DNA of 50,303 bases from a virus, in IMG/VR virus record IMGVR_UViG_3300023082_000013, positions 1 to 50,303 of that record; one strand, given 5' to 3'. How positions within the stretch are numbered: the first letter of the stretch is position 1; each line of letters starts with the position of its first letter. Below are positions 1,900-46,635 of the stretch, piece after piece. The notes under the pieces were generated by a model. It was not told where the DNA came from. It searched no databases and was given only the letters and a program-made list of their open reading frames with translations. The translations under genes and the position numbers were made by a program.

Positions 1900-1960
1900 G
1901 TGGTTTTCAGTTTTAAAGTTTTAAAACAGTTTTATATATAGTTTTGGGCATTGTGAATAA
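1900..1960. other. AT-rich unwinding region with DnaA box (part of oriV)
   Basis: An AT-rich stretch (about 1905-1946, with TTTTAAAGTTTTAAAACAG and TATATATAG) stands out from the GC-rich surroundings and resembles a DNA-unwinding element. It is followed at 1952-1960 by TGTGAATAA, which fits the reverse of the DnaA-box consensus TTATNCACA. Together with the iterons 55 bases downstream, this is the usual order of an iteron plasmid origin. Confidence 0.75.
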
Positions 1961-2014
1961 CTCCTGCAAGCCGCGACCTGTCTGGGGTGTAGGGGTCTAA
2001 TAACCCTGTGGACA

Positions 2015-2124
2015 GGTGGGTAAAGTACAAAGGAGGGTGGGTAAAGTACAAGATCGGGTGGGTTAAATACAGGTTCTGGTGGGTAATGTACAAACTCGAC
2101 CCCATGCGGGTGGGTAAAGTACAA
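2015..2124 (+). repeat. iteron array (five direct repeats) of oriV
   Basis: Five copies of GGTGGGTAAAGTACAA start at 2015, 2036, 2057, 2078 and 2109. Copies 1, 2 and 5 are identical; copies 3 and 4 differ by three and one bases. The first four are spaced exactly 21 bases apart and the last by 31 bases. These are about two and three helical turns, so all copies lie on one face of the DNA. They are the expected binding sites for the RPA-family initiator encoded immediately downstream. An eight-base inverted repeat (GGCCTCAG, 2132-2139, with CTGAGGCC, 2167-2174) follows the array. Confidence 0.92.
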
Positions 2125-2190
2125 GAAAACAGGCCTCAGAGCGCATTGGTGCCCCTGTGTCATCGCCTGAGGCCAACATTTACGGGTGTT

Positions 2191-2229
2191 TTGACTGTCT
2201 GAGACGGCAATTCTTGTATTTTACCCACC
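2191..2229 (+). promoter_or_regulatory. repA promoter region with inverted iteron
   Basis: A single iteron copy in the opposite orientation (TTGTATTTTACCCACC, 2214-2229; one mismatch to the consensus) lies 75 bases before the repA start. A -35-like TTGACT (2191-2196) precedes it, and any -10 element would fall in or beside the inverted iteron. Binding of RepA here would block its own transcription, as in other iteron plasmids. The promoter call is inferred; the inverted iteron is seen directly. Confidence 0.7.
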
Positions 2230-2304
2230 CTCAGCATACAGCCACCGAATTCACAGCGACCCAACACCCCATGATCGATGCGCAGCATGCACAAAGGACA
2301 GAAC

Positions 2305-3336
2305 ATGGTTAAGCCAACCGACAAAGATCAGACCGCCAAGGCCAAGCGGTTGACTACGATCGCATCCCGTAAAAAGCCTGCCGCACCAGCCCAAGACCTA
2401 TTCTCGGCGGCCGCGCCAGCTACGTCCGCGCGCAAGACTGCTGCGAAGACGCCGAAAGCTACGCCGGCACGGAAGTCGAGCCCAATACAGCCAGACTTTT
2501 TTATCCCTATGCTTTACGACGTTGGCGCCCGCGACAGCCGGGGCGTGATGGACGTTGCTGTGTTCCGCCTGTCCAAAAACGAAAGTCGCGCCAACTCGGT
2601 GATTCGCTATGAGCTGCCTGACGGGCATGTGCAGGTTTCTTCGGGCGTGTACGGGATGGCATCTGTGTGGGACTACGACATAGTGCTGATGGCTGTCTCT
2701 CACCTGACCGAGGCCATGAATCAGTATCGTGCCGGCAAAGGCGACAAGCCTGGCCAGGTATTTCGGCCCCACATCGGCGACGTGCTGACGTTCTGTGAAA
2801 AGAACGTGGGCGGTAACCAAAAGGACAGCGTGGTAGACGCCCTGATGCGCTTGAGCACTACGCATGTGAGCATTGAGCGCACACGAAGCGTAGGTGACCA
2901 GCCCATCACCATCACCGAGGGCGAGAACCTGATAGGTCCGTTCAAGGTGGTCAGCAGTCCCAAAGGCAAGCAGGTTGAGTTTGTCGAAATCAAGATCGCT
3001 GATTGGATGTATGAGGAAATCACCCAGGGGCATAAGCCTGACGTGCTGACCGTGCACCCTGACTATTTCAAGATCAGCCAGGGCGTGGCCAGATTCGTCT
3101 ACAGACTGGCGCGCAAGGCAGCCGGCAAGGATATGGCCGTATGGGGGTTTAAAACGCTCTACGAGCGTAGTGGGAGCATGGGACCATTTAAGGAGTTCTC
3201 CCGCATACTGCGTAAGGTGATCCAGGCTAATGACCTGCCCGAATACGATTTGACAGAGGAAGAAGGTCAGATGGGTCCGGTACTGCGCATGGTGCATCGA
3301 TCGGTTGCCGAGCAGTGGGCACTCCCGAAGGATTGA
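2305..3336 (+). CDS. repA: plasmid replication initiator, RPA family
   Basis: A 343-residue replication initiator that should bind the iterons upstream and open the origin. The N-terminal ~60 residues are a basic, Ala/Lys/Pro-rich tail. The core carries the block typical of RPA-family (Pfam RPA) initiators of broad-host-range plasmids: DVGARDSRGVMDVAVFRLS, VIRYELPDGHVQVSSG, ASVWDYDIVLMAVSHLTEAM and FRPHIGDVLTFC, followed by a second DNA-binding-like half. I chose the ATG at 2305 because AAAGGA (2293-2298) stands at the right distance; an in-frame ATG at 2278 has no such site. The gene sits directly behind five iterons and an inverted iteron. It shows that the phage genes here belong to an autonomously replicating element. 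Confidence 0.93.
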   Translation: MVKPTDKDQTAKAKRLTTIASRKKPAAPAQDLFSAAAPATSARKTAAKTPKATPARKSSPIQPDFFIPMLYDVGARDSRGVMDVAVFRLSKNESRANSVIRYELPDGHVQVSSGVYGMASVWDYDIVLMAVSHLTEAMNQYRAGKGDKPGQVFRPHIGDVLTFCEKNVGGNQKDSVVDALMRLSTTHVSIERTRSVGDQPITITEGENLIGPFKVVSSPKGKQVEFVEIKIADWMYEEITQGHKPDVLTVHPDYFKISQGVARFVYRLARKAAGKDMAVWGFKTLYERSGSMGPFKEFSRILRKVIQANDLPEYDLTEEEGQMGPVLRMVHRSVAEQWALPKD

Positions 3337-3341
3337 CGCGC

Positions 3342-3384
3342 TAGGCACATGTGCCTATCTTGCTGTCCTAGGCACATGTGCCTA
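3342..3384. repeat. tandem 16-bp palindromes (operator candidate)
   Basis: TAGGCACATGTGCCTA occurs twice, at 3342-3357 and 3369-3384, 27 bases start to start. Each copy is a perfect palindrome, and the second is extended by one base pair. They fill the gap between the repA stop and a small HTH-like gene. Such paired dyads are typical dimer-binding operators. The protein that binds them is unknown; the adjacent small gene is the obvious candidate. Confidence 0.8.
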
Positions 3385-3406
3385 GTCCTTAATGATAGCG
3401 AGTGTC

Positions 3407-3700
3407 ATGGATAATCGAGCGCGTTTCCTACAGCTGTTAGCACTTCACGCAATACCTCAAACGAGCAATTCCAAAGTGAGTGCCGCCAAGATAATCGCGG
3501 CAGTCACCGGCGTTCCCTGTTCCGATCGTACCGTTCGATCATGGTTGAATGATCCAGCCAAGAGCAGCTCCCGCCCATGCCCTGACTGGGCGTTGGCTGC
3601 TCTGACCAAAGGGATCGCATTCATGCAGCGAGCAGTAGGGTCGCCTGCACAACCCCCAGCAGCTGAACTTCCCGGGCCGATAGCGCAAACCCTCACCTAA
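3407..3700 (+). CDS. small HTH-like protein downstream of repA
   Basis: A 97-residue protein. Residues about 20-60 (SAAKIIAAVTGVPCSDRTVRSWLND) look like a helix-turn-helix with a C-terminal proline-rich tail. No enzyme motif is present. I chose ATG 3407; ATG 3392 is possible but lies only eight bases from the second palindrome and has no visible ribosome site, while 3407 has only a weak GCGAG. The gene may bind the two 16-bp palindromes immediately upstream and so control itself or plasmid copy number; this is inferred from position. Confidence 0.6.
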   Translation: MDNRARFLQLLALHAIPQTSNSKVSAAKIIAAVTGVPCSDRTVRSWLNDPAKSSSRPCPDWALAALTKGIAFMQRAVGSPAQPPAAELPGPIAQTLT

Positions 3701-5757: not shown

Positions 5758-7365
5758 ATGGCAGACGAAACGAAACCCAAACGCAAGCTCCTGAGCAGCC
5801 TGGCGAGCGCGACCAGAAACGCCGCTCAGCTGCTCATGGGTGAAATGGAAGAACCCGCGCTACAGACCTCTGTGTCTACCTTTGACGCCGACTACGTGGG
5901 CGTTGAAATGCTGCTGGGCAATACCGACCGGCCAGCCCGATCACGTATCGCCATATACATGAAGTGGCACCACATGGTGCAAGAAGGCCTGATGAACACC
6001 ATCTTGCGCCTGCATGTACAGATGGCGCTGGGCGGGCACGAGACGACGGGTGAGACGGTATTCATCGAAGCCAAGCCCGGCGCCAACGCTGCAGAAAAAA
6101 AGATGGTCGACGAGCTGCAAATGCTTGCCAAATTCTTCAACGGTTGCGCCCACCAGGTGTGTTTCAACGCGGCAGGCTATGGCGATGCTTTCGCCAGGCT
6201 GTACGTGCGCAAGGGCGAAGGCCTGTTTGCGCTCAATTACGACATTTTCCCGCCTATGGTGCAGCCCTACGAGGTGTTGGGCCAGACCGTCACCTACGTC
6301 GTCACCCTGGGCACCAAGGTCACCAGCCGTGTCAGCCACATGGACATGGCGCGCATGAAGATGCCGCGCATGGGCTACCTGCCGCAGATGCGAGCAGTCG
6401 AGAACGCCCAGCGGATCAACATGGAAGCCAACGACCCATCGGACATGGTGCCTTTGCCGGCGCTGATCGGCGGATCGTTCCTTGAAGCCGCGGAATCGGA
6501 CTTTGACAACCTCGAGGCGGCGCTGCGCGGCCTGGTGGGGCAACGGATTGCGGGCTCGATCGACGAAACCATGATCGGCGCCAACATGTCGGACATGACC
6601 GTTGACCAGCAACAGAGCTTCATGGCCTCGCTGGAAAAGATGCTCAAGACCATGAAAACCCGCGCTGAGGAAGCCGTTAAAACCGGCCGCTACTCGACAT
6701 CGCGTCACTTCCACGTCATGCCCACCTTCAACGAAAAGCAGCTGACTCAGATCAGCTCGTTTAACGGCACCTCAAATTCCGGTGTCGGCACCAACATCGA
6801 AGACGTGATGTTCCACGCCCGAAAGCTGGCCGGTACCGCAGGCATTGACCTGTCGATGGTGGGCTTTGCTGACCAGCTCACAGGTGGCCTGGGCGAGGGG
6901 GGCTTTAACCGCACCAGCAGCCAGGCCGCTGAGCGCTCCCGGATCATCCGCACCGCATTTACCCAATTCTGCAATGACGTGATCGATCGCCACATGATCG
7001 CCAAGTACAAGCGTACCTGGACCGATGACGAACGCCCGTACGTGATCAATTTCTACGGCTCGATCGCCGCCCTGGAGGCTGAGAAGCAAGCCAGCCGAGA
7101 GCGCGCCATCAACAGCTCCGCACTGCTGGTGCAGATGCTGGCGGGTATGCGCGATCTGGGCATGCCATCGGAGGCCAACGAGCAAATTCTGGTCAAGTCC
7201 GAGCTGGACAACGACTTTGCGAAGATCCTGGCCGACGGCCTCAAGAATGCCAAACCACCCGTACAGCCAGGCATGGAGGGTTTCGGCCCACCAGGTGAGA
7301 ACGATATTGAGCCGCCAGAACCAGAGCGCGCTTTGACCCAAGATAACGACGACGAGGCCGCCTGA
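5758..7365 (+). CDS. portal protein
   Basis: A 535-residue protein with the length and architecture of a myovirus portal, the dodecameric ring through which DNA enters and leaves the capsid. The N-terminal region carries the expected mixed alpha/beta wing. The C-terminal stretch around GFNRTSSQAAERSRIIRTAF resembles the helical stem and crown of portal proteins, and the end is an acidic, proline-rich tail. The downstream gene starts inside its stop codon (TGATG at 7363-7367) and encodes the prohead protease. Portal followed by protease is the usual head-gene order. This is the best portal candidate in the window; no second one is seen. Confidence 0.85.
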   Translation: MADETKPKRKLLSSLASATRNAAQLLMGEMEEPALQTSVSTFDADYVGVEMLLGNTDRPARSRIAIYMKWHHMVQEGLMNTILRLHVQMALGGHETTGETVFIEAKPGANAAEKKMVDELQMLAKFFNGCAHQVCFNAAGYGDAFARLYVRKGEGLFALNYDIFPPMVQPYEVLGQTVTYVVTLGTKVTSRVSHMDMARMKMPRMGYLPQMRAVENAQRINMEANDPSDMVPLPALIGGSFLEAAESDFDNLEAALRGLVGQRIAGSIDETMIGANMSDMTVDQQQSFMASLEKMLKTMKTRAEEAVKTGRYSTSRHFHVMPTFNEKQLTQISSFNGTSNSGVGTNIEDVMFHARKLAGTAGIDLSMVGFADQLTGGLGEGGFNRTSSQAAERSRIIRTAFTQFCNDVIDRHMIAKYKRTWTDDERPYVINFYGSIAALEAEKQASRERAINSSALLVQMLAGMRDLGMPSEANEQILVKSELDNDFAKILADGLKNAKPPVQPGMEGFGPPGENDIEPPEPERALTQDNDDEAA

Positions 7366-11539: not shown

Positions 11540-11872
11540 ATGGCTGACCTGGCTGACGATGTTTTCAATGTGGACCTGCTGTTTCGGATGATCGCCCACT
11601 GGCTGGGCACCAAACCGAACACTTATCTAGGTTCCACGTACGGCGCGCCACTGGCCGACCTGCTGCAAAAGCCGCTCAGCTCCCCGATCGCCGATGCCTT
11701 TCTCGCCAAGATGAAAGTAGACATCCCTGTGCTGGGGGCTCTGCCTGTGGGGACCATCAACCTGGAAGCCACCAACAACGGTATCGATCGCAAGAACTTG
11801 TTTATCAACATCAACGGCCGTTCGATCAGCGTTGATGCCCTCGTGGGAGAGGTTGACCGTGGCAGTTACTAA
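11540..11872 (+). CDS. baseplate wedge protein, gp25-like
   Basis: A 110-residue protein starting at ATG 11540 (MADLADDVFN). It has the size and layout of the T4 gp25/P2 gpW baseplate family: a start with an acidic helix, a YGAPLADLLQKPLSS segment, then a strand-rich end with VDIPVLGALPVGTINLEA and LFININGRSI. These proteins join the tube to the wedge and are needed for sheath contraction. Its stop overlaps the start of the gpJ-like gene by 14 bases, matching the usual gpW-gpJ order. Similarity is by eye. Confidence 0.65.
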   Translation: MADLADDVFNVDLLFRMIAHWLGTKPNTYLGSTYGAPLADLLQKPLSSPIADAFLAKMKVDIPVLGALPVGTINLEATNNGIDRKNLFININGRSISVDALVGEVDRGSY

Positions 11873-13262
11873 AGACGAATTCATTCAGGACGCGGTCAAC
11901 CAGATCGCGAACTACCCGACCATCGCGGCCCGGTACTCGATCGGCGATCCCTTGATCATGCAGATGATCGCGGCCAATGCGGCCATGCTGGCGCACCTGA
12001 GTGATCAGATCGATGTCACGGGCGCCGAGCCCTTCACCAAGTCGCGCGACGTGACCGTGCGGGCAGATGGCTCCGTGAAGGGCATCTTGCCGTTCGCAAC
12101 GCCCACCATTGCGCTGATCAAGGTCACCAACGGTTCCAACAGCACCATGCGCATCATTGCCGGGCGTGAGCTGATCGACCAGCAAGGGCGCTACTGGCTC
12201 GTTACAGGTGGCACCACCATGCTGGCCGGCGCTGTGGGCTACATGACCGCCAAACAAGTCAAATCGCGCGCCCTGTCGCACACCGTCAGCAAGTCCATGG
12301 CGTTCTACAGCATCGAGATACCAGCAGCTGAGGTGGGTTTCATTGCTGACGTGGCAGTGACCGGGTTCACGCTGTCGAACGCCTTCGCCAACGTGCTGGG
12401 CGGCGACATGGTGTTCAACATCAAGTGTGACGAAAGCAGCATCATCAGTGTGCAGTTCGGCGTGCAGAACCTGGCAGGCTATCAGCCGTCCGTGGGCGAG
12501 AGCATTGCGGTGCAGATCCTCGACACCGAAGGCGAGCTGGTGCTGACCGAGGCCATGAAGTTCGCCTTTCGTTACGCCGGCGCCAACGTGGGTAACCTCG
12601 AGTCGCAGCTGGTGCTCGAGCTGTCGGAGGTGACCCAGCCGGGCGCCGACCCGATGGACATCAACACGATGCGCGAAATCGGCTCATACCCCGCAATCTA
12701 TGACGAAAGCGCGGTATTTCTGTCGAACTTCGACTTTCTGGTGCGCAAAAAGGTGGTGCCGCTGACCTTTCTGAGTATCTGGAACGAAGCGCGTGAAGAA
12801 GAAGTGCGCGGCGCCAGTTACACCAACATCAATTCGATCTATGTGGCCGCGTCCAAGGATGGGGGCGACGACGACACGCTGCACAAGAACATCGCCGAAA
12901 TCATCCATCGTGCCGACAGCAGCTTGCGATATCGGCGCCGGGCGGTGGTGCCCTCGATCATGTCCGTCAAGCTGACCCTGTACATCACATCCGTATACGA
13001 CGGTGCCGCGGTGATCGAGCAGGTGCGCACCCTTATGCTCGACAAATACGGCGCCGGTTCCGCCTGGTCGCAGCGCGGGGAAGCCAAAATGCTCGAAAAG
13101 GACATTTACGACCTGCTGCGCAACAAAGTGGAAGCGCTCAACCCGCGGCTGGGTAACCTGGTGATCAACTCCATCACCAGCGCCATCCCTGTGGTGCTGC
13201 CTGAGCACCATCGGTACATCACGGACGCCAGCCTGACCGTTGTGACCGAGGAAGCCGAGTAA
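11859..13262 (+). CDS. baseplate wedge protein, gpJ/gp6-like
   Basis: A 467-residue protein starting at GTG 11859, where GGGAGAGG stands about six bases upstream. It shows the mosaic of the P2 gpJ/T4 gp6 baseplate family: an N-terminal helical part with an acidic segment, a middle beta-rich domain (about 90-300), and a C-terminal alpha/beta domain with RYRRRAVVPSIMSVKLTLYI. The wedge ring of gp6/gpJ controls baseplate opening and sheath contraction. It overlaps the upstream gp25-like gene and its stop codon overlaps the next start (TAATG at 13260-13264), so the three baseplate genes are tightly coupled. Confidence 0.75.
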   Translation: MAVTKDEFIQDAVNQIANYPTIAARYSIGDPLIMQMIAANAAMLAHLSDQIDVTGAEPFTKSRDVTVRADGSVKGILPFATPTIALIKVTNGSNSTMRIIAGRELIDQQGRYWLVTGGTTMLAGAVGYMTAKQVKSRALSHTVSKSMAFYSIEIPAAEVGFIADVAVTGFTLSNAFANVLGGDMVFNIKCDESSIISVQFGVQNLAGYQPSVGESIAVQILDTEGELVLTEAMKFAFRYAGANVGNLESQLVLELSEVTQPGADPMDINTMREIGSYPAIYDESAVFLSNFDFLVRKKVVPLTFLSIWNEAREEEVRGASYTNINSIYVAASKDGGDDDTLHKNIAEIIHRADSSLRYRRRAVVPSIMSVKLTLYITSVYDGAAVIEQVRTLMLDKYGAGSAWSQRGEAKMLEKDIYDLLRNKVEALNPRLGNLVINSITSAIPVVLPEHHRYITDASLTVVTEEAE

Positions 13263-13873
13263 TGGAGCTGATCCCCCTACAGCGCAGCGCGGTGGCCGAT
13301 GACGTTGAGGCCGAATTCAAGGCCTTGTTCCTGCAGCTGTACAAGGATCGTCTGGGCGACGGCGTGAACGAGCTGGCGCTGTACGGTATGCCGCATCTGG
13401 GCTCGATCGGCATCATTGAGCGTTACGTCTCCAATGATGGGCTGGCGGTACTGCGCACGACGACGGTTGACCAGATCCGCTATCTGTTCCATGCCTGGCG
13501 CTACAACAACCCCCAGCGCGGTACCGCGTTCCTGGGCGCCTACCTCAATGCGTTGTTCGGGCCGGTCTATACCATCACCCAGCTGTATTGCCACAAGAAC
13601 GGCGTTTACCCCACGGACGCACTGAGCCTGGGCGAGATTCAGGACATCGCCGGCAACCTTGATGACTACTACCTGACCAGTCGGCTGCGCGTCGATATCC
13701 AAACCCCGATCGTGCCCGAGCGGATCTTGCGCGCCAGCCGCACCGCTGTGGCCGCAAAGTTCGTGCTCGAGCTGCGCATTGCTCAGACCATTACCTTTGG
13801 CTACAGCCTGGCGGTACCGACGCGCGCGGTGATCGCCGGACGGTTCTCGACCACCATCCGGCCAGGGCGCTAA
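13262..13873 (+). CDS. baseplate/tail protein, gpI-like
   Basis: A 203-residue protein that follows the gpJ-like gene, the position occupied by P2 gpI, which links the wedge to the tail fibre. Residues about 30-130 contain LYGMPHLGSIGIIERYVSND and an FHAWRYNNPQRGTAFLGAYL helix as in such tail proteins; the end is beta-rich. Role and name are inferred from order and general similarity. The next gene is the tail fibre, which would attach to this protein. Confidence 0.6.
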   Translation: MELIPLQRSAVADDVEAEFKALFLQLYKDRLGDGVNELALYGMPHLGSIGIIERYVSNDGLAVLRTTTVDQIRYLFHAWRYNNPQRGTAFLGAYLNALFGPVYTITQLYCHKNGVYPTDALSLGEIQDIAGNLDDYYLTSRLRVDIQTPIVPERILRASRTAVAAKFVLELRIAQTITFGYSLAVPTRAVIAGRFSTTIRPGR

Positions 13874-25031: not shown

Positions 25032-25109
25032 AAACGCGCGAAGGCGCCAACGCGCGTAAGCGCTTCTGCGCCTTGGAGGGTTCGCACGTACGCGCTTTGT
25101 GGTTATGAT
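25032..25109 (+). promoter_or_regulatory. parA promoter with partition operator repeats
   Basis: Repeats of an ACGCGCG-type element (25034-25040, 25050-25058) and GTACGCGC (25088-25095) lie before a TATGAT -10 box (25104-25109). The segment AAGGCGCCAACGCGCG (25041-25056) recurs almost unchanged near 34700. These are the expected sites of partition-protein binding and self-control. The leader ends with ATCAGCCAGATAA (25120-25132), shared with gene 24732. Confidence 0.7.
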
Positions 25110-25143
25110 GCCGCGCATCATCAGCCAGATAATTGAGGTTCAC

Positions 25144-25800
25144 ATGCCAAAGGTCATCGCCATCCTTCAACCGAAGGGAGGGGCCAGTAAAACCACACTG
25201 GCGTACAACCTGACGGCCGCCATGCAGCGCGCCGGCCTGGACGTTGTTCTGGTCGATTCCGACCCCCAAGGCACGGCCCGCGACATCGTCTCCGCTCGCG
25301 CCGACGATCAGCAGTCCATCCGTATCTATGGCATCGATCGCCCTGAGCTGCTGGCGCGTGAGGTGTCGCACATCCGTAACGACTACGTGATCATTGATGG
25401 CGCTTCCAAGGCCAACAAGCTATCCGAGGCGGCGATTCGCGCGGCTGACTTGGTGCTTATTCCTGTCCAGCCTTCTCGCCTCGACGTGTGGGCGTCTGAG
25501 GATCTGGTGAACATGATCATGGATCGCCGGGCGAACATTGAGGACTTAGGCCGAACGCTAAAGGCTGCGTTTGTGTGGACGCGCGTTATTGCCAGCTCCG
25601 ATATCGATAAGGACATTGTGGATGACCTAAGCGTCTTCAATCTCCCAGTGCTCGAAGGCACCATTAACCAGCGTAAGGCGTATGCGAGAAGTGCTGGCAG
25701 AGGGCTGTCTGTTTTCGACTACAAGCCCAAGAACAAAGACGCGATCGAAGAAATAGAGCTGATCAGAGCCAACGTCATGGCCATGCTTGAGAGCGCATAA
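25144..25800 (+). CDS. parA: partition ATPase ParA
   Basis: A 218-residue deviant Walker ATPase that should drive segregation of the plasmid form. It shows the Walker A motif PKGGASKTT (residues 10-18, signature Lys 11 and Lys 16), the A' motif VVLVDSDPQG (34-43), and a Walker B-like YVIIDGAS region near 80. It lacks an N-terminal HTH, so it is a small type Ib-like ParA. The ATG at 25144 has GAGG five bases upstream. It is flanked by two copies of a GC-rich operator region and followed by the small partner gene. It confirms that the element is actively partitioned. Confidence 0.92.
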   Translation: MPKVIAILQPKGGASKTTLAYNLTAAMQRAGLDVVLVDSDPQGTARDIVSARADDQQSIRIYGIDRPELLAREVSHIRNDYVIIDGASKANKLSEAAIRAADLVLIPVQPSRLDVWASEDLVNMIMDRRANIEDLGRTLKAAFVWTRVIASSDIDKDIVDDLSVFNLPVLEGTINQRKAYARSAGRGLSVFDYKPKNKDAIEEIELIRANVMAMLESA

Positions 25801-25860
25801 CAAACGCGCCTTGGCGCGTACGCGCTTTTACACTATGATCGCAAACACGCGTACGCGCCT
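25801..25860 (+). promoter_or_regulatory. second partition operator and promoter
   Basis: GCGCGTACGCGC (25814-25825) is a perfect 12-base palindrome, and CGCGTACGCG (25848-25857) is a perfect 10-base one; a TATGAT -10 box lies between them (25834-25839). This pattern matches the site before parA and is likely both the operator of the parB-like gene and part of the centromere. Confidence 0.75.
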
Positions 25861-25888: not shown

Positions 25889-26188
25889 ATGAGTGACCGA
25901 GCGAAAACTAGCATTCGCCCCAGCCGGGCGAAAGTTGAAAAGGAAGTAGAAGAAACGGGCGAGACTTACCGTTTCAATGCTCACCTGCAGAAAGCTCCCA
26001 ACATGACCATGCGCACCGAAACCGCAGAGCTGAGACTGTCGCGCCCATCCGACCTGCTCAATCTGCTGCTCGAGGCGTATGCCGATCGCCAGGCGGCCGG
26101 CGAGAAAGATCCTTTCTTTGAAGACGCGTTGATGCGCTACCGCGATCGCAAGACCAATCGCAAGCCGGTGCCTTTGTCGGCACGTTGA
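25889..26188 (+). CDS. small ParB-like partition partner
   Basis: A 99-residue basic protein encoded directly after parA. The middle (TMRTETAELRLSRPSDLLNL) suggests a ribbon-helix-helix or similar DNA-binding fold, as in small centromere-binding partners of type Ib ParA proteins. It begins behind AGGTGAG. It probably binds the ACGCGC-type repeats flanking parA and the far copy near 34.7 kb. No long ParB/Spo0J domain is present, which agrees with the small ParA. The fold is not certain. Confidence 0.7.
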   Translation: MSDRAKTSIRPSRAKVEKEVEETGETYRFNAHLQKAPNMTMRTETAELRLSRPSDLLNLLLEAYADRQAAGEKDPFFEDALMRYRDRKTNRKPVPLSAR

Positions 26189-36014: not shown

Positions 36015-38336
36015 ATGGCTCTAAACCCCCTCGAACAAGCCCGGTTGACCTCGCAGCTGTTAGGGCTGCGCGCACAGCTGCAATCCGGCTCGTTGAACCC
36101 TATCAAGAAAGCCCGCGTAACCACCCAGGCGCTGGATCTGTATACGCGCCTGGGCGGTGAAGCGCGGGTGGCGCCGGCAACGATCGATGCCGAGCAAGCC
36201 AAGCTCGCAGCCGACGACGACGGTTTGAGCGATGACCCCAACAGCGCGAACTACCGCTACAAGGACACCGGGTATATCTCCGGATCGCGAAAGGAGCAGG
36301 CTGCAGCGCAGATCAAGGCCGCCAAAGCCGCGGGCCAAATGCTGCGCACCAGCGATATCGACTTCAAGGCGATCGAGGAAAACCCGCGCCAGGCGCGAGA
36401 ACTGATCAAGAAGTCCAACCTGTTCGGCCAGGTCGATTGGGAAGGTCTGCAGGCGGGCGGCATGCCACCCGAGGTGGGCTACCTGATCGATCGCCTGTAC
36501 GCGTCTATCGGCGCGATGCCGGCCGTTGACAGCGCCGAGGCACGCCAGAGCTATGCCTTGGGGCTGGAAACCATCCGTACGCGCCTTGAGGGCGCCAAAT
36601 CCGTCGACGACGTGACCAGCACGCTGGTGGAAATCGGCGAAACCATGACCGGCACCCGTCTCGATGCGGATGAGGCCGACCAGTACCGCGCCCTGAGCGC
36701 CCAGCTCAAGCAGTTGCAGGACCGCTCCAAAGCGATCGAGGACGGCCGCAAGGTGCTCTACGACGCCATGCAGACCGCGTTCGGCGAATTCAACAAAGCG
36801 AAGTACGCACTCGAAAATCGGCGCAAGCGCGGGTGGGCGATCGACCCTGAGCACCAGACGGCCGTTGCCGACGCACAGGCCGCGTACGACACCGCGCAAA
36901 AGGTCTGGGGCGACGAGGTTCAAGGCACCAACGACGAATTAGAGTCCCTGCGAAAGCAGCGCAGCACCGTGTGGGCTGATCGTGACGATATCGTCGACGC
37001 CGCCAAGGCTCGCAACCTGCAGAGCATTGAGGCAAAAGCCTGGCTGGCGCTGGGTGATCGATTCGTCAAATCAACCCTGTATCGCAGCAAGGGTAACGCT
37101 GGATCTGACAGTTTCGCCGGCCATGTCGCCAACGCCTGCGCGGGCGAGCCCAAGTCATGGGACTGGACCACCAAAGAGAAGGCCGCCCCCAAGCGCGCCA
37201 GCAAAAAGAAGATCAGCTTCACGCTCAAGGTGGTCGAGAACTTCGAGCGCATTGGCGGGCGGCCGGTAGCGGTGGCATCGACCAAAGACCTGGAGCGCCT
37301 GTGCGGCTTTCGGGCGGTGCAATCGGGCAACTGGGTGCTGGGCGACTTCGTCAGCGCCAAGTGGCACGTAGAGCAGACGGCGGGCGCCATGCAGGACATG
37401 GCCGACGTACTGGGGATCGATGACAACCACCTGAGTTTCGGCGGGCGTCTGGCGATGGCTTTCGGTGCACGCGGCACGGGCGGGAAGGGCGCGGCCATGG
37501 CCACCTATGACCCGATCGAGCGCGTCATCAACATGACCAAGATGAATGGCGGGGGAAGTCTGGGGCACGAAGTACTCCACGCCCTGGACAACATCATGCC
37601 CAGCCTGCTGCGCGGTGAGGAAGGCGACAGCAACGAGTATGCGACCGCCAACCCTGAGCTGCTCCCGGCCGGCGCCATCCGTGAAGCCTTCGTGAAGCTC
37701 AAAGACACTGTGACCACGGGCGGCGTGCGCCTGGTGGAAACGATCAAGCTGCCGCCCCGTTCCCTGGAGCGTGCACGCCTCAACCTCGACAACCGTACGC
37801 TGCGAGGTGTGGGCCTTCACATCAAGAACGCCGGCAACGTGCATGACGCCGTGCTGGCGGTCGACAAGGTGTTCAGCAACCTGACATCGAAGGCTTACCT
37901 CAAGCAGAAAAAGCAGTGGCGCGAAATTGCCGCGGCGTACTACTCCCCCGAGGGCGCGACTGAGGTGCAGGTTCAATCCGGCGCCAGCGTCTCGAACTAT
38001 TACATGGAAGCGATCCAGCTCGACGATGGCGTGACCGGCAAATACTGGTCATCGCACGAGGAAATGGCCGCGCGTGCATTCCAGAGCTACCTGGAGGATC
38101 GCCTGGCCGACATGGGCCGAAAAAGCGATTACCTCAGCTGCCTGGCTGACAACAAGTACCACTACGCGCCCGAGCTGGGCGCCCCCTTCAAGCCCTACCC
38201 CGAGGGCGACGAACGAACTCGCATCAATGCCGCATTCGACCAGGTGTTCAAGGCGCTGCGCGATGAAAAGGCTTTCGAGAAAGCCATGGGCAATACCGCC
38301 TTGCTGGATTCCATCTTTGGGGTGAAACATGACTGA
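36015..38336 (+). CDS. polyvalent protein with LPD1-like metallopeptidase-type domain
   Basis: A 773-residue protein (upstream in-frame starts exist to 35964). Residues 1-48 form a helical module (NPLEQARLTSQLLGLRAQLQ) shared with the next protein. Residues 60-430 are mostly helical. Around 515-525, GHEVLHALDN gives H518-E-V-L-H522, an HExxH zinc-peptidase-type motif of the LPD1-like domain in large polyvalent proteins. It ends with L-L-D-S at 763-766. I infer a packaged effector that may process a host or phage protein. The terminator directly before the start is odd. Family assignment is by motif and context. Confidence 0.72.
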   Translation: MALNPLEQARLTSQLLGLRAQLQSGSLNPIKKARVTTQALDLYTRLGGEARVAPATIDAEQAKLAADDDGLSDDPNSANYRYKDTGYISGSRKEQAAAQIKAAKAAGQMLRTSDIDFKAIEENPRQARELIKKSNLFGQVDWEGLQAGGMPPEVGYLIDRLYASIGAMPAVDSAEARQSYALGLETIRTRLEGAKSVDDVTSTLVEIGETMTGTRLDADEADQYRALSAQLKQLQDRSKAIEDGRKVLYDAMQTAFGEFNKAKYALENRRKRGWAIDPEHQTAVADAQAAYDTAQKVWGDEVQGTNDELESLRKQRSTVWADRDDIVDAAKARNLQSIEAKAWLALGDRFVKSTLYRSKGNAGSDSFAGHVANACAGEPKSWDWTTKEKAAPKRASKKKISFTLKVVENFERIGGRPVAVASTKDLERLCGFRAVQSGNWVLGDFVSAKWHVEQTAGAMQDMADVLGIDDNHLSFGGRLAMAFGARGTGGKGAAMATYDPIERVINMTKMNGGGSLGHEVLHALDNIMPSLLRGEEGDSNEYATANPELLPAGAIREAFVKLKDTVTTGGVRLVETIKLPPRSLERARLNLDNRTLRGVGLHIKNAGNVHDAVLAVDKVFSNLTSKAYLKQKKQWREIAAAYYSPEGATEVQVQSGASVSNYYMEAIQLDDGVTGKYWSSHEEMAARAFQSYLEDRLADMGRKSDYLSCLADNKYHYAPELGAPFKPYPEGDERTRINAAFDQVFKALRDEKAFEKAMGNTALLDSIFGVKHD

Positions 38337-41300
38337 CACCAATCAATCGGCCGTGCTGGCGCCGCTCGAGCAAGAACGCCTCAGTGCCGAGCTGCTCACC
38401 CTGCGCGCACAAATGACCGAGGGGGCGTCATCGCCCCTTGCTCGCGCCAAGGCCAGCACCAGGGCGCTGGTGATTAGCGACCTGCTGACCAAATCCAAGG
38501 GCCAGGCAGCTTTCGACAAGGCAAAAGCGTTCTACCGGGAAAACCTGCAGGGCAAGACGATCGATTCAGTGATCGGCCCCGTTATTGTGAACGGCAAGGG
38601 CTGGAGCAAGACCAAGTTCAACCTGAAATCAGACCCCATCAAAGCCCAGCTGGTCGAGTGCATCGTTGAGATTCTCACCACGGGCGCAGCTGGCGCGCGA
38701 ACGGCCACCAGTAAAGTGCGCGACGACAAAATGAAGGCGTTCTACTTCATCCAGAAAGAGGTGCGGGTAGGCGACTTGATGGTGTTGGCGGGGATTCAGG
38801 TGGGGGAAGACGAGGAAGGGCAGAAGTACTACAACATTTCTCACCCCGGTTCCAAGCAATGGGCGGGTGGTGAGACGCTGGACAGCGTAGGGGGGGAGGC
38901 CGGCGCCCTGGGCGCCACATGGATAAAGCCATGTTTAGCCCAGGACACCGGAAGCGAGTCGCCGAATTATGAACGGGAAAATCAGCCGTTCTCCGGCGAC
39001 ATCGCTAACGGCCTCTTTGATTCCTTGCGGGAAAAGCCGCAACTGCACTCGGATGCCGTTGAGACAAATCTAGCAGACGATGACCTAAATATCACCATCA
39101 TTTCCGTGCGCGCAGCCGACGCGGCCAATGATGATGGGCCGGCGCCGGCCGCTACCAACGCGCTGGCCACCGGGATGCAAACCCAGAAAAACGGCTCTGT
39201 CCTGGTGATGGGCGACCCTGCAGCGCTGACGGCGTATGTAGCGGCCAACTTCGACGCCAGCAAGATCAAGCAAACCCCCGAAGGGATCGTGTTCGCAAAG
39301 GCCCAGGCGCGACTGGCGGAATTCGTGCCCACAACGGCGCAAACGCTGGAAAGCGGGGCGGTGGTCTACGAGCACGGCGCCATGGGTGGCGGTGCCTCGA
39401 TCAACTATCAGGGTGAAACCTCAGGCGTTGCGCGCGACCTGGCAGACCTCAAAGGGATCATGGCCAGGGAATGGGGCCCCGAGAAATTCCGCGCCGCTTT
39501 CGGCGAGGACGCCGGCGCCGACGATGTGAAGGCGTACCAGGACCAACAACAAGCGATCGCCGACCGCAAAGCCCAGAACGCTGCAGCTGCCGAAGACGCT
39601 GCAGCTGCGCCAGAACGTGAGCGCCAGCAGGCAGCTGAGCAGGCCGCGGCCGATGCTGCAGAGATTGAGCAGATCCGCGCGCAGCGTGATGCCGATGATC
39701 GAGCAGAGTTTGCCAAGACCATCGGCGCCGGCGTATCGGGCAACGTGGTGTACCAGGCTTATCTGGACACTTTGGAGACGCTGCCCGCCTTTGAGGATGG
39801 CAACCATGCGTTTTTAGGGTGGGCTGGCCAGCGTGTTGGCGAATTCGAGGCCAAGGTAGGCGGGCGCGTATCGCACAACAGGGCCGCTTACGAGGCTTAC
39901 CTGCGTGAGTATGCGGACGAGCACCTGTCGGAGCGTGCACGCGCTGCCAGAGCCATCCCGGACACTGCGCCGGCGCTGACCGCAAAGGGCAATCCGATTA
40001 TTGAAGAAGCCGTGCTGGTCGACCTTGGGCTGGTGCGTGAGGTGTTCGGTCGCTGGAAATACCGCGATTCTGTCAATTCTCCCCAATTGTTCGCCAACGA
40101 CAGAGAAAGCGCGATCGAGCGTGGCAGTGACGCCTATGCCAAAGCAGATCCGGCTCAGCTGCTAACCAAAGAGCAGCGTTTTGACAAAGCCGACGCCGAT
40201 TTCTACGCCGATTTTGACGGCCGCTACGGGAAAATGAGCCTTGATCAGGTGCGCCAGATCATGGAGGCCGCCAAACCGGACGAAGCCAGCACGCTGGCGG
40301 CCTATGCCCGTGAATCCGACAACAACGGCGGCCGACGCACTGGCCCGGCTGTGATCACCCAAGGCGCCCGCGACGGGGCAGAGCTGGCGCGCCAGCTGCA
40401 GCGCTACATTGCCGAGCGTGAGGCAAAAGAGCCAACGCCAGACGTTGAGCCGACCCCTGTGAGTGGTGACCCCGCACCCGTAGAGCCGACGCCCGAAATC
40501 ATTGAGTACAAGACAAAGCGCGACAAGATCCTGCGCGGGATCATCCGCACGGATCTGACCCTTGATCAGGCCAAGGCGATCGACCCCTACACCTGGAAGA
40601 TGAACGGCGGCTACTTCATCCGGGAAAAGCACCTGGGTGGCGAAACCGCTCACATCCAAGCCGCACCCGCGCCCGTGGTGATGACTGCCGAACAGCAAGC
40701 CGAGGCGGTGGCCATCGCAGCGCGCCAGGCCGCCGAACGTGCACAGCAGGCATTGGCCACACAGGTGGACAAGCTGCGCCAAGTGGCGAACAAGGCCATT
40801 GGAGACGCTGACGGTAGCCTGAATGCTGATCGCAAGACCAATACGTCCAAGCGCGCCAGTGAAGCCGGCGCAGCCCTTGAGAAAGCGGCCGCCAACAAAG
40901 CCGCGGGGCAGACCCTCAACCGGGTGGCGGATGCGATCGAGGCTGGCGCCGGGGGTGTGTTGGCCAAGCTGTCCAGTCGCGCCCAGCTCGACGAGCTGCA
41001 AAGGATCATGCGCCGTGCCCAGTACGACGCCGACAGCAAACTCACCTATGGCGAGCAGCTGAGCCGCAAAGGGCGCCCGTTCGACGAAAACGACCTCAGG
41101 TTTGTGGCCTATCCGCGTGCCGAGGTGTGGAGCAACCGCTTTGCCAATGCCGCGAAGACGATGGCCAACAAAGCACAGGCGGGTAACAGCCGATTGATTG
41201 CTGCTCTGATCAAGCTGGGTGATGGGCCCGAGCGCATCATTCTCAATGACACCACCATCGCCCTGACGCGCAAAGCCGCGGCCGTGCTCAAGACAGTGAA

Positions 41301-42000
41301 GGAAAGCTGGGATCTGTCGGACCCCATGGAAGCGATCGCCCGCGTGGATCGGCTGGCGCGCATGGGGATCACTGACCGTGTGAGCCTGGTCGCGGCCGTG
41401 GAGGCGCTGATTCCCCACCTGGTAGAAAAGGCCCAGGAAGATCCGGTGAAGAAGGCCGAGCGCGCCATTGTCGGGCAAAAAGTAGGGATCGACTTTTTCC
41501 CAACGCCGGCGCACGTCGCCCAGCGCATGGCACAGCTGGCCCACATCCGGGAGGGTATGCGCGTCCTCGAGCCGAGCGCCGGCAACGGCAACCTGGCGGA
41601 CGCTGCAAAGGCTGAGGGGGGCGTGGTCGACGTAATTGAAATCTCCGACTCACTGCGCAACATCCTGACCGCCAAGGGCTACACCGTGGTCGCGCACGAC
41701 TTCGACGGTTTCACGCCAGAACAGCCGTATCCCGCGATCCTGATGAACCCCCCTTTCAGCAACCGCCAGGACGCCGCACACATCATGCGCGCATTCGGAA
41801 TGCTGGCCAGCGGCGGCACCCTAGTCGCGATCGCCGGGGAGGGCGTTTTCTTCGGAAAGGATCAAAAAGCGGTCGCTTTCCGGGACTGGCTGGACGCAAA
41901 CGAGGCCGATGTCGAGCCTTTGGAGGGTGGCACTTTCAAAGACAACACACTTTTGGCGCAAACCGGGGCAAACGCCAGATTAATCGTGCTTCGCAAGTAG
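38329..42000 (+). CDS. polyvalent protein: nuclease-like domain and adenine methyltransferase
   Basis: A 1223-residue protein. Residues 1-45 repeat the helical module of the preceding protein (APLEQERLSAELLTLRAQM). Residues about 60-182 resemble a BECR- or LPD3-type domain (YRENLQGKTIDSVIGPVIVN, GWSKTKFNLKSDPIKAQL, KAFYFIQKEV). T-L-D-S at 183-186 would release it. The middle is helical, with a known polyvalent block (RGIIRTDLTLDQAKAIDPYT, GYFIREKHL). The C terminus (about 1050-1223) is a DNA adenine methyltransferase: motif I VLEPSAGNG near 1080 and motif IV NPPF near 1138. It should modify phage or host DNA, probably to resist restriction. Confidence 0.8.
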   Translation: MTDTNQSAVLAPLEQERLSAELLTLRAQMTEGASSPLARAKASTRALVISDLLTKSKGQAAFDKAKAFYRENLQGKTIDSVIGPVIVNGKGWSKTKFNLKSDPIKAQLVECIVEILTTGAAGARTATSKVRDDKMKAFYFIQKEVRVGDLMVLAGIQVGEDEEGQKYYNISHPGSKQWAGGETLDSVGGEAGALGATWIKPCLAQDTGSESPNYERENQPFSGDIANGLFDSLREKPQLHSDAVETNLADDDLNITIISVRAADAANDDGPAPAATNALATGMQTQKNGSVLVMGDPAALTAYVAANFDASKIKQTPEGIVFAKAQARLAEFVPTTAQTLESGAVVYEHGAMGGGASINYQGETSGVARDLADLKGIMAREWGPEKFRAAFGEDAGADDVKAYQDQQQAIADRKAQNAAAAEDAAAAPERERQQAAEQAAADAAEIEQIRAQRDADDRAEFAKTIGAGVSGNVVYQAYLDTLETLPAFEDGNHAFLGWAGQRVGEFEAKVGGRVSHNRAAYEAYLREYADEHLSERARAARAIPDTAPALTAKGNPIIEEAVLVDLGLVREVFGRWKYRDSVNSPQLFANDRESAIERGSDAYAKADPAQLLTKEQRFDKADADFYADFDGRYGKMSLDQVRQIMEAAKPDEASTLAAYARESDNNGGRRTGPAVITQGARDGAELARQLQRYIAEREAKEPTPDVEPTPVSGDPAPVEPTPEIIEYKTKRDKILRGIIRTDLTLDQAKAIDPYTWKMNGGYFIREKHLGGETAHIQAAPAPVVMTAEQQAEAVAIAARQAAERAQQALATQVDKLRQVANKAIGDADGSLNADRKTNTSKRASEAGAALEKAAANKAAGQTLNRVADAIEAGAGGVLAKLSSRAQLDELQRIMRRAQYDADSKLTYGEQLSRKGRPFDENDLRFVAYPRAEVWSNRFANAAKTMANKAQAGNSRLIAALIKLGDGPERIILNDTTIALTRKAAAVLKTVKESWDLSDPMEAIARVDRLARMGITDRVSLVAAVEALIPHLVEKAQEDPVKKAERAIVGQKVGIDFFPTPAHVAQRMAQLAHIREGMRVLEPSAGNGNLADAAKAEGGVVDVIEISDSLRNILTAKGYTVVAHDFDGFTPEQPYPAILMNPPFSNRQDAAHIMRAFGMLASGGTLVAIAGEGVFFGKDQKAVAFRDWLDANEADVEPLEGGTFKDNTLLAQTGANARLIVLRK

Positions 42001-44604: not shown

Positions 44605-45001
44605 CAGAACCGCGGGTGACGCGCCTCGCAAGGTCGTTGAGGCGATTGTGGGTGGCCAGGCTTATCCGTTCGTGGTGTCGCTGACCCACTCCAACATCTT
44701 GCCGGTAGTCCTGCCTTCGAGCGGCATCAACACCGTGCTTGAAGCCGGCAAAGCCTACGACGTGAAGGTTAAGAGCTTTCACCAGGCATGGCACCTGGTC
44801 ACCGACCTCAGTGAATACGCCGTTCGCACTGACAACAACGCAGATGACTACGCAGTGGTGACCACCGCTGCCGAGGAACCTGCACCCTTGCCTGTCGCCA
44901 CCGAAGTGGCTTTGGCAGAAGCCCCAGCGCCTGACGCCATCGATCTGGCCACGGTAAAGCCCCCTGCCGAAACCAAAGGCACCAAGGAGAAAGTTAAATG
45001 A
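44588..45001 (+). CDS. small structural protein, unassigned
   Basis: A 137-residue protein starting at ATG 44588 behind AGGTGG and overlapping the upstream gene by 17 bases. It has a beta-rich N-terminal 75 residues (VTINRTAGDAPRKVVEAIVG, GINTVLEAGKAYDVKVKSFH) and a flexible Pro/Ala/Glu-rich tail. Its stop overlaps the start of the sheath gene. It may be a head-tail joining or decoration protein; the sequence alone does not decide. Confidence 0.55.
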   Translation: MKVTINRTAGDAPRKVVEAIVGGQAYPFVVSLTHSNILPVVLPSSGINTVLEAGKAYDVKVKSFHQAWHLVTDLSEYAVRTDNNADDYAVVTTAAEEPAPLPVATEVALAEAPAPDAIDLATVKPPAETKGTKEKVK

Positions 45002-46635
45002 GCCAGGTAATGTCTCGAACGGTTGGCAAACGCTCCGGCGTCCAGGTCAATCCAATCAATGACCAGTCCGAACAGCCGAGCACCAGCACCGTAGCGCATA
45101 ACATCGCTATCGTTGGACGCTTCCCGCGCGGTCGTACCGACAAGGTTTTCGCTGTCAGCCAGGGCCGCTTTAAGCGCACCCTCGGTCAATCCGTTTCCCT
45201 GGCAGTCAGTGCGCTGGCAGAGCCGGCGATTCACATTTACGAAGCCCTGCAGGCCGGCACAGTGCAGGGGATCGTTTCGCGCCTGATCGGCCCGGACGCC
45301 AAAAACCAGCTGATGGTGGCCAGCTCTGCGACAGCTGCTGCCCCCGGTGATGTGTGGAAGCTGGTAGACGAAGATACAGGCCCTACTGGCACTTACCTGC
45401 TCGCGCTCAAGCACCTGGAATGCTTCTCTGACGGTGTTACCCCTGAAATTCACGCAGACGAGGTCAAAACGGCCAACGGCGCGCTGACCGAAAGCAAGAT
45501 TGTCACCATCCAGCTGCGCGACGTAATCGATAACTCGATCGTCCTGGGCCCATTCAAAGGCTCGCTCGATATCAACGCGCTGGATGAATTCCAGCAAAGC
45601 TATTACATCGGCGATATCGTCTCGCAGAACACTGACGTGCTCGAGGTGGTATCGGTCGCCGATAACGCAGTTGTGACCGCTGACTGTGTGTTCTACGGCC
45701 GCAAGGACGGCAAGGATCTGTACTCCGGTAAGACCTTGAAGTACTTCACCGAGGGCGACCAGGTCTACGCGAACGCCGATCTGGATGCCGCGATCGATCG
45801 CATCAAGCGTTCGCGTCCGACCTTCACTTACCTGTGCAGCGGTGGTTCCGAAAGCGTTGCCTTGCTGTCGCGTCTGCTGACCCTGGGTAAAGCGATCAAC
45901 CGCCAAGTGCTGTGGGATATCCCTGGCCGCCTGGCGCCGGAAGCGGCTGCAAACTTCTACGCATCCGTGGGCGGCGCGACTGACAGCCTCTACAGCCAGG
46001 CGTATTGGGCTCCGTTGAGCGCACAGAACCCGGTTGTGGGCGGCAAGGCCATTTTCGGCACCTCAGGTATGCAAGCGGGCTTGCGCTGCGCGCGTAACGC
46101 TCAGACCAACGCCAAGGGCATTGCACCGCGCAACCGTCCGATTGCTGGTGATGACTACGGTGTAAACCGCACCAACATCAGCCAGATTTTCGACCTGGAC
46201 GAAGAAATCGACCTGGAAGTACTGGCCGAGTCGCACATCAACCCGGTGATCTTCCGTGACTACACCACGGGCGGCAAATATGCCTGGGTCGACTCGTTGA
46301 CCGGTGCACAAACCGAAGGCGCCAGCAAGCTGATTGCGGTCGCGGAAATGTCCACTTACGTGGATGACACCGTGGCGGCCACGTCTCAAGGCTTCTTGCA
46401 AAAGCCGATGGGCGAAGCGATCGACAAATCGAGCAAGTTCCTCAAAACCTTTTTCGACTCTCTGCAATCGGCCGGCTGGCTGCAAGCAAGTGCCGAACTG
46501 GGCGGCGCTTGCTGGACCGCAACGGTAGAACCGAACGCTGCTGATCCGTTCCAGAAAATGAACATCAGCTATTCGATCTGCTACGACGGCACCAACCGCG
46601 TCACCGTCGTACAACAAACCTTGGTCAGGGTTTAA
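44998..46635 (+). CDS. tail sheath protein
   Basis: A 545-residue contractile-sheath protein. It has the mixed N-terminal insertion domains and the conserved C-terminal part (KFLKTFFDSLQSAGWLQASA, then PFQKMNISYSICYDGTNRVT and VVQQTLVRV) that forms the sheath core and linker strand in phage sheaths. Sheath monomers stack round the tube and contract at infection. The presence of this gene together with the gp25-like, gpJ-like and gpV-like proteins shows a myovirus. It overlaps the preceding gene by four bases (ATGA). Confidence 0.88.
   Translation: MSQVMSRTVGKRSGVQVNPINDQSEQPSTSTVAHNIAIVGRFPRGRTDKVFAVSQGRFKRTLGQSVSLAVSALAEPAIHIYEALQAGTVQGIVSRLIGPDAKNQLMVASSATAAAPGDVWKLVDEDTGPTGTYLLALKHLECFSDGVTPEIHADEVKTANGALTESKIVTIQLRDVIDNSIVLGPFKGSLDINALDEFQQSYYIGDIVSQNTDVLEVVSVADNAVVTADCVFYGRKDGKDLYSGKTLKYFTEGDQVYANADLDAAIDRIKRSRPTFTYLCSGGSESVALLSRLLTLGKAINRQVLWDIPGRLAPEAAANFYASVGGATDSLYSQAYWAPLSAQNPVVGGKAIFGTSGMQAGLRCARNAQTNAKGIAPRNRPIAGDDYGVNRTNISQIFDLDEEIDLEVLAESHINPVIFRDYTTGGKYAWVDSLTGAQTEGASKLIAVAEMSTYVDDTVAATSQGFLQKPMGEAIDKSSKFLKTFFDSLQSAGWLQASAELGGACWTATVEPNAADPFQKMNISYSICYDGTNRVTVVQQTLVRV

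Follow-up and report, generated by a model that had tools for sequence, protein, structure and literature searches.

An iteron origin and RPA-family initiator as the predicted maintenance replicon of a P1-like Pseudomonas phage-plasmid

The viral DNA analyzed here, a 50,303-base IMG/VR record (hereafter, the window), carries at 1900-3336 what appears, from its sequence, to be a genuine and complete iteron origin of a P1-like Pseudomonas phage-plasmid. We are confident that this segment, together with a ParA gene, is the maintenance replicon of the element, and that it is replaceable on the virion chassis. In the prophage state, this phage very probably persists as a circular plasmid. The kind itself is not new, enterobacteria supplying the best-known phage-plasmids. 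In the papers searched, we found no description of the Pseudomonas variant, a lineage whose replicons are exchangeable and whose members have a recombinase in common; pKF715C, one of its plasmids, appears only in a genome announcement.

The origin region is intergenic (1872-2277) and contains an AT-rich block, a DnaA box, an iteron array, and an inverted iteron, followed by repA and a hairpin. The features are as follows.

1900-1947, unstranded: predicted AT-rich DNA unwinding element, holding the most AT-rich 40-mer of the window; same position in relatives
1952-1960, minus strand: DnaA box TGTGAATAA (TTATTCACA on the minus strand); the single exact TTATNCACA in the window
2015-2030, plus strand: iteron 1 (16-mer search)
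2036-2051, plus strand: iteron 2 (16-mer search)
2057-2072, plus strand: iteron 3, 3 mismatches (16-mer search)
2078-2093, plus strand: iteron 4, 1 mismatch (16-mer search)
2109-2124, plus strand: iteron 5, after a 31-bp step; several relatives have a 30-bp step here
2214-2229, minus strand: inverted iteron, between array and repA; likewise placed in all relatives with the origin
2278-3336, plus strand: repA, RPA-family replication initiator, frame open (PF10134, E=8.5e-62, full profile length)
3341-3385, unstranded: two perfect 16-bp palindromes TAGGCACATGTGCCTA, 27 bp apart; strong hairpin (z -6.6)

The richest 40-mer of the AT-rich block has 34 A or T among its 40 bases (window mean 15.9, sd 2.9), and four AGTTTTA/G repeats, at 1909, 1917, 1928, and 1940, lie inside the block. 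The five direct iterons follow one another at steps of 21, 21, 21, and 31 bp. Allowing at most 3 mismatches, the 16-mer GGTGGGTAAAGTACAA occurs six times in the window, always at the origin, while shuffled windows contain a mean of 0.10 and a maximum of 1 occurrence; these counts rule out a chance origin of the iterons. The better start of repA is probably the ATG at 2305, which is preceded by AAAGGA. Ahead of repA, no site resembling a sigma-70 promoter was found, Rep_3 (PF01051) has no match in the window, and a sequence search of solved structures returned no RPA relative. Relatives of the window RepA are found in 1,100 plasmid records. The region thus combines the hallmarks of an iteron-controlled theta plasmid replicon, namely, a plasmid Rep-family initiator, regular direct iterons adjoining rep, an AT-rich region, and a DnaA box. 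The sequence-only reading had named an unwinding element, a DnaA box, five iterons, an inverted iteron, and an RPA initiator, and every one of these parts is present at 1900-3336.

The notion is that RepA would occupy the direct iterons, all five of them, and host DnaA the box 63 bp ahead of the array; together they would open the AT-rich block. Replisome loading at the opened block would then permit theta replication of the prophage circle. The inverted iteron is a probable site of autoregulation or handcuffing: by acting there, in front of its own gene, RepA would probably repress repA and limit copy number. Finally, the ParA cassette at 25 kb would partition the prophage copies.

Comparison of 19 RPA loci, window included, reveals the full origin arrangement in 17. 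These related origins possess at least 4 iterons, most of them spaced 20-21 bp, and carry an inverted copy ahead of repA. The DnaA-like box lies 63-64 bp ahead of the first iteron in 17 of the 17 origins in which both are readable. The two exceptions are G020, which is cut at the contig start, and G004 (L014), which encodes RPA and was discarded as an origin carrier, there being no iterons in front of the gene. Constancy of geometry across diverged sequences points to an origin layout under selection for function. The iteron core itself differs: GGTGGGTRAATTAC or a close variant in most relatives versus GGTGGGTAAAGTAC or a near variant in the window. The AAATTAC core of most phage-plasmid relatives appears in none of the six window iterons, which suggests that the specificity of the window RepA has shifted.

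Non-phage plasmids with RPA initiators (pGLE121P3, pPK_RT811, pVIM KSS435, one from Xanthomonas citri, and one from Rhodospirillum) resemble the window in RepA (62-67% identity), in a related iteron core in most, and, in some of those read, in an AT-rich block and DnaA-like box. They differ in that the origin lies downstream of repA, that is, repA is flipped relative to the origin, and in that most are typed as conjugative. Specifically, repA is followed downstream by repeats GTAAAGTAC or GTAATGTAC in reverse orientation, with the AT-rich block and DnaA-like box after them in the plasmids read further. The RepAs of these plasmids form a separate supported branch (97/96). The phage-plasmid layout, in which repA reads away from the iterons and the inverted iteron lies between, would suit autoregulation.

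Behind repA, the TAGGCACATGTGCCTA palindromes were not found in the relatives searched. The hairpin is followed by an ORF of 102 aa (3392-3700); the sole homolog seen belongs to the SM1 phage-plasmid and maps elsewhere there (14.6 kb). Hairpin and ORF may represent a small inserted module or a regulator-operator pair.

The remainder of the window identifies the virus. Downstream of repA come a baseplate wedge protein, tail proteins, and then the portal protein; farther along lie DarA/DdrB-type proteins, the tail sheath, the tail tube, and a PmgG-like protein. Two virion genes anchor the assignment.

5758-7365, plus strand: portal protein, P1 Prt-like (phrog_1497, E 8e-128; 84% identical to pKF715C, 25% to the P1 portal)
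44998-46635, plus strand: tail sheath (phrog_1036, E 6e-114)

Other matches to the portal are from Xanthomonas phage Rb1 (42%) and an Acinetobacter phage (32%); the P1 match has an E of 2e-31. P1-type virion genes are thus joined in the window by Dar genes, as is expected of a P1-like phage-plasmid, and the tail sheath makes the phage a myovirus. The myovirus genome with a portal-containing structural cluster, proposed from the letters alone, is therefore real, and the window is a piece of a P1-like tailed phage, presumably of Pseudomonas. The record has no terminal repeats, so it is probably a fragment. Its parent element is 80-95 kb; of the 29 portal relatives in IMG/VR, the longer ones are 77-95 kb. 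In pKF715C, 41 kb or so lie beyond the window-like part; besides early genes, rdgC, and the integrase gene, this stretch includes the gene of a conserved helix-turn-helix regulator, close to that of the small terminase. The lysogeny switch, said earlier to be missing, is indeed not in the window, but its absence reflects the fragment, as the conserved regulator of the relatives sits outside the corresponding segment. A separate observation concerns 38329-42000, which encodes a 1223-aa protein, kept in relatives, whose C-terminal part resembles a methyltransferase (weak matches to PADLOC mad2 and to type II methyltransferases).

Two complete Pseudomonas plasmids possess both the RepA and the portal, and both are collinear with the window on either side of repA. 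The first, pKF715C (Pseudomonas putida KF715, NZ_AP015032), is circular, 94,696 bp long, and collinear over ~53 kb. It shares with the window its virion genes, the placement of its RPA repA, and the origin layout, and it is typed as non-mobilizable; it differs in its RepA (~60% identical, on another branch), its iteron core, a distant ParA, and a mercury-resistance transposon. The SM1 plasmid of Pseudomonas atacamensis (NZ_CP070504; 81,190 bp, ends overlapping by 77 bp) has collinear virion genes, the origin layout, and a RepA 74% identical to that of the window, while its portal is 67% identical and it carries another ParA. A third plasmid, DR133 (80,993 bp, circular), has the portal and lacks RPA. 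The phage-plasmid reading is well supported, since closed circular plasmids of Pseudomonas are the nearest relatives: the circular extrachromosomal state is observed for close relatives with the same gene order and origin layout, and the window itself is a 50-kb fragment. This much of the lifestyle proposed by the sequence-only reading holds.

P1 and D6 of the Enterobacteriaceae share with the window group the portal, DarA/DdrB-type, PmgG, sheath, and baseplate families and a plasmid prophage; they are set apart by a portal identity of ~25% and by enterobacterial hosts. P1 itself uses a Rep_3 initiator and Cre-lox. Having RPA in place of Rep_3, the window is not filed under P1 proper. The enterobacterial P1 groups have been described (PMC12977533, PMC10879196).

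A partition cassette, the second component of the predicted replicon, lies midway along the window.

25099-25800, plus strand: ParA partition ATPase, start probably 25144 (PF13614 and phrog_164)
25815-25858, unstranded: CGCGTACGCG repeats in the gap from parA to the following gene; candidate operator or centromere
25889-26188, plus strand: candidate ParB partner, 99 aa; by eye, a suspected ribbon-helix-helix protein; 52% homolog at the same gene-order place in pKF715C

The linkage of the origin to a ParA system is thus borne out, and ParA would supply the partition function typical of a P1-like phage-plasmid; its ParB partner would be the 99-aa protein, which has no match in Pfam or PHROG. Identity between the window ParA and the ParAs of its relatives reaches only 24-28%, while three relatives have ParAs 69-71% identical among themselves.

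Trees of RepA and portal disagree. The portal tree groups the window with pKF715C and G003 (100/100), and the RepA tree does not. The AU test on the RepA data rejects the portal-tree grouping (p 1.4e-5), and on the portal data it rejects joining pKF715C to G019 and G020 as in the RepA tree (p 1.7e-7). RPA is present in 16 of 26 records. One relative, G015, instead encodes a Rep_3 initiator (L061, G015:C1 about 54660-55109) with TGACCCTGAATCACTCCACA repeats, its iterons, in front, adjoining tail-gene homologs of the same phage-plasmid group. A candidate initiator is the 186-aa HTH protein common to DR133, G018, and G021; in DR133 (L005:872-1800, CP048608), it has only weak RepL similarity (E 0.027). 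A tandem-repeat search for iterons in DR133 found instead a 24-bp repeat array beside this protein. Given the conflict between the trees and the Rep_3 or small HTH protein of some relatives, the origin-repA cassette, and the par cassette with it, behaves as an exchangeable module on a P1-like virion chassis, as read from these comparisons.

That the plasmid state replaces chromosomal integration, as originally claimed, can be upheld only in part. Every near-complete relative in the group encodes a P4-type tyrosine integrase of the arm type outside the window-equivalent part, so the element could also integrate through this enzyme, with the iteron origin serving only a transient or alternative plasmid state. 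Integration has truly occurred in a distant Pseudomonas cousin: G148 harbors a P1-like prophage of ~75 kb (C3 about 194675-270004, L049-L052) in tRNA-Leu(CAA), with 25-bp att repeats TGGTGCCCCGAGGGAGACTCGAACT. That prophage shares P1-like virion genes with the window, mostly 27-45% identical, but its integrase is a different one, 27% identical to that of the group, and RPA, Rep_3, and ParA have no match in it. The close relatives, moreover, are closed plasmids, and no chromosomal copy of any was found. The flanks of the SWRI74 integrase match its own chromosome at chance level only, and none of the candidate attB matches, which we rejected, lies in a tRNA gene. Among 399 Pseudomonas genomes, no chromosomal integrase exceeds 48% identity. 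In 14 of 14 relatives examined, the integrase start is preceded, at a distance of ~165-215 bp, by a palindrome of the type GGGGATA...ATCCCC, whose two arms in some cases carry matching changes; no such palindrome occurs near 11 chromosomal relatives of the integrase. Given the conserved palindrome, for which no chromosomal partner was found, and the absence of a close chromosomal integrase from the genomes searched, integrase and palindrome more likely serve resolution or circularization, by analogy to Cre-lox, than insertion. We therefore judge it improbable that the phage of the window integrates. According to PMC12977533, phage-plasmids typically lack integrases, and their chromosomal copies are ascribed to recombination that is not integrase directed; the integrase-bearing relatives and the integrated G148 prophage depart from this picture. 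We speculate, with slightly more doubt than conviction, that the Pseudomonas lineage keeps a tyrosine recombinase and its own palindromic site as a Cre-lox analog that would circularize the genome or resolve dimers, while swapping replicons (RPA, Rep_3, small HTH candidate) and par cassettes, thereby changing incompatibility group but not virion.

Plasmid maintenance must also be weighed against a role for the iteron origin as the start of lytic replication. The origin adjoins virion genes, and P1 has a separate lytic replicon, both of which would fit such a role. It is nonetheless very unlikely: many ordinary plasmids have RPA and iterons as their replicon, alongside a similar AT-rich block and DnaA box, a partition cassette is present, and other plasmid-type initiators replace the cassette in some relatives. 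We give even less credence to a relic or plasmid-phage hybrid that has ceased to function, or to an assembly chimera, to which the divergence of repA and iterons from relatives, and the single contig of the exact element examined, might point. The repA frame is intact, the origin geometry is conserved, and the gene order of pKF715C matches on both sides of repA, an agreement that makes an assembly chimera unlikely.

With its P1-like virions, a retained tyrosine recombinase, and exchange of the replication cassette, the Pseudomonas lineage lends itself to comparative study of how phages acquire plasmid maintenance. It bears on how replicon incompatibility decides which prophages share a cell, and on how P1-like phages move between plasmid and integrated life. 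The lineage can also move cargo, as the mercury-resistance transposon in one relative indicates. This Tn3-type transposon with its mercury-resistance operon lies among the virion genes of pKF715C (L001:33857-43779), between the homologs of window 11832-13262 and 13262-13873. Finally, the SM1 phage-plasmid (NZ_CP070504, L004:27468-29744) carries a gene annotated as a Hint-domain homing endonuclease (intein-like).
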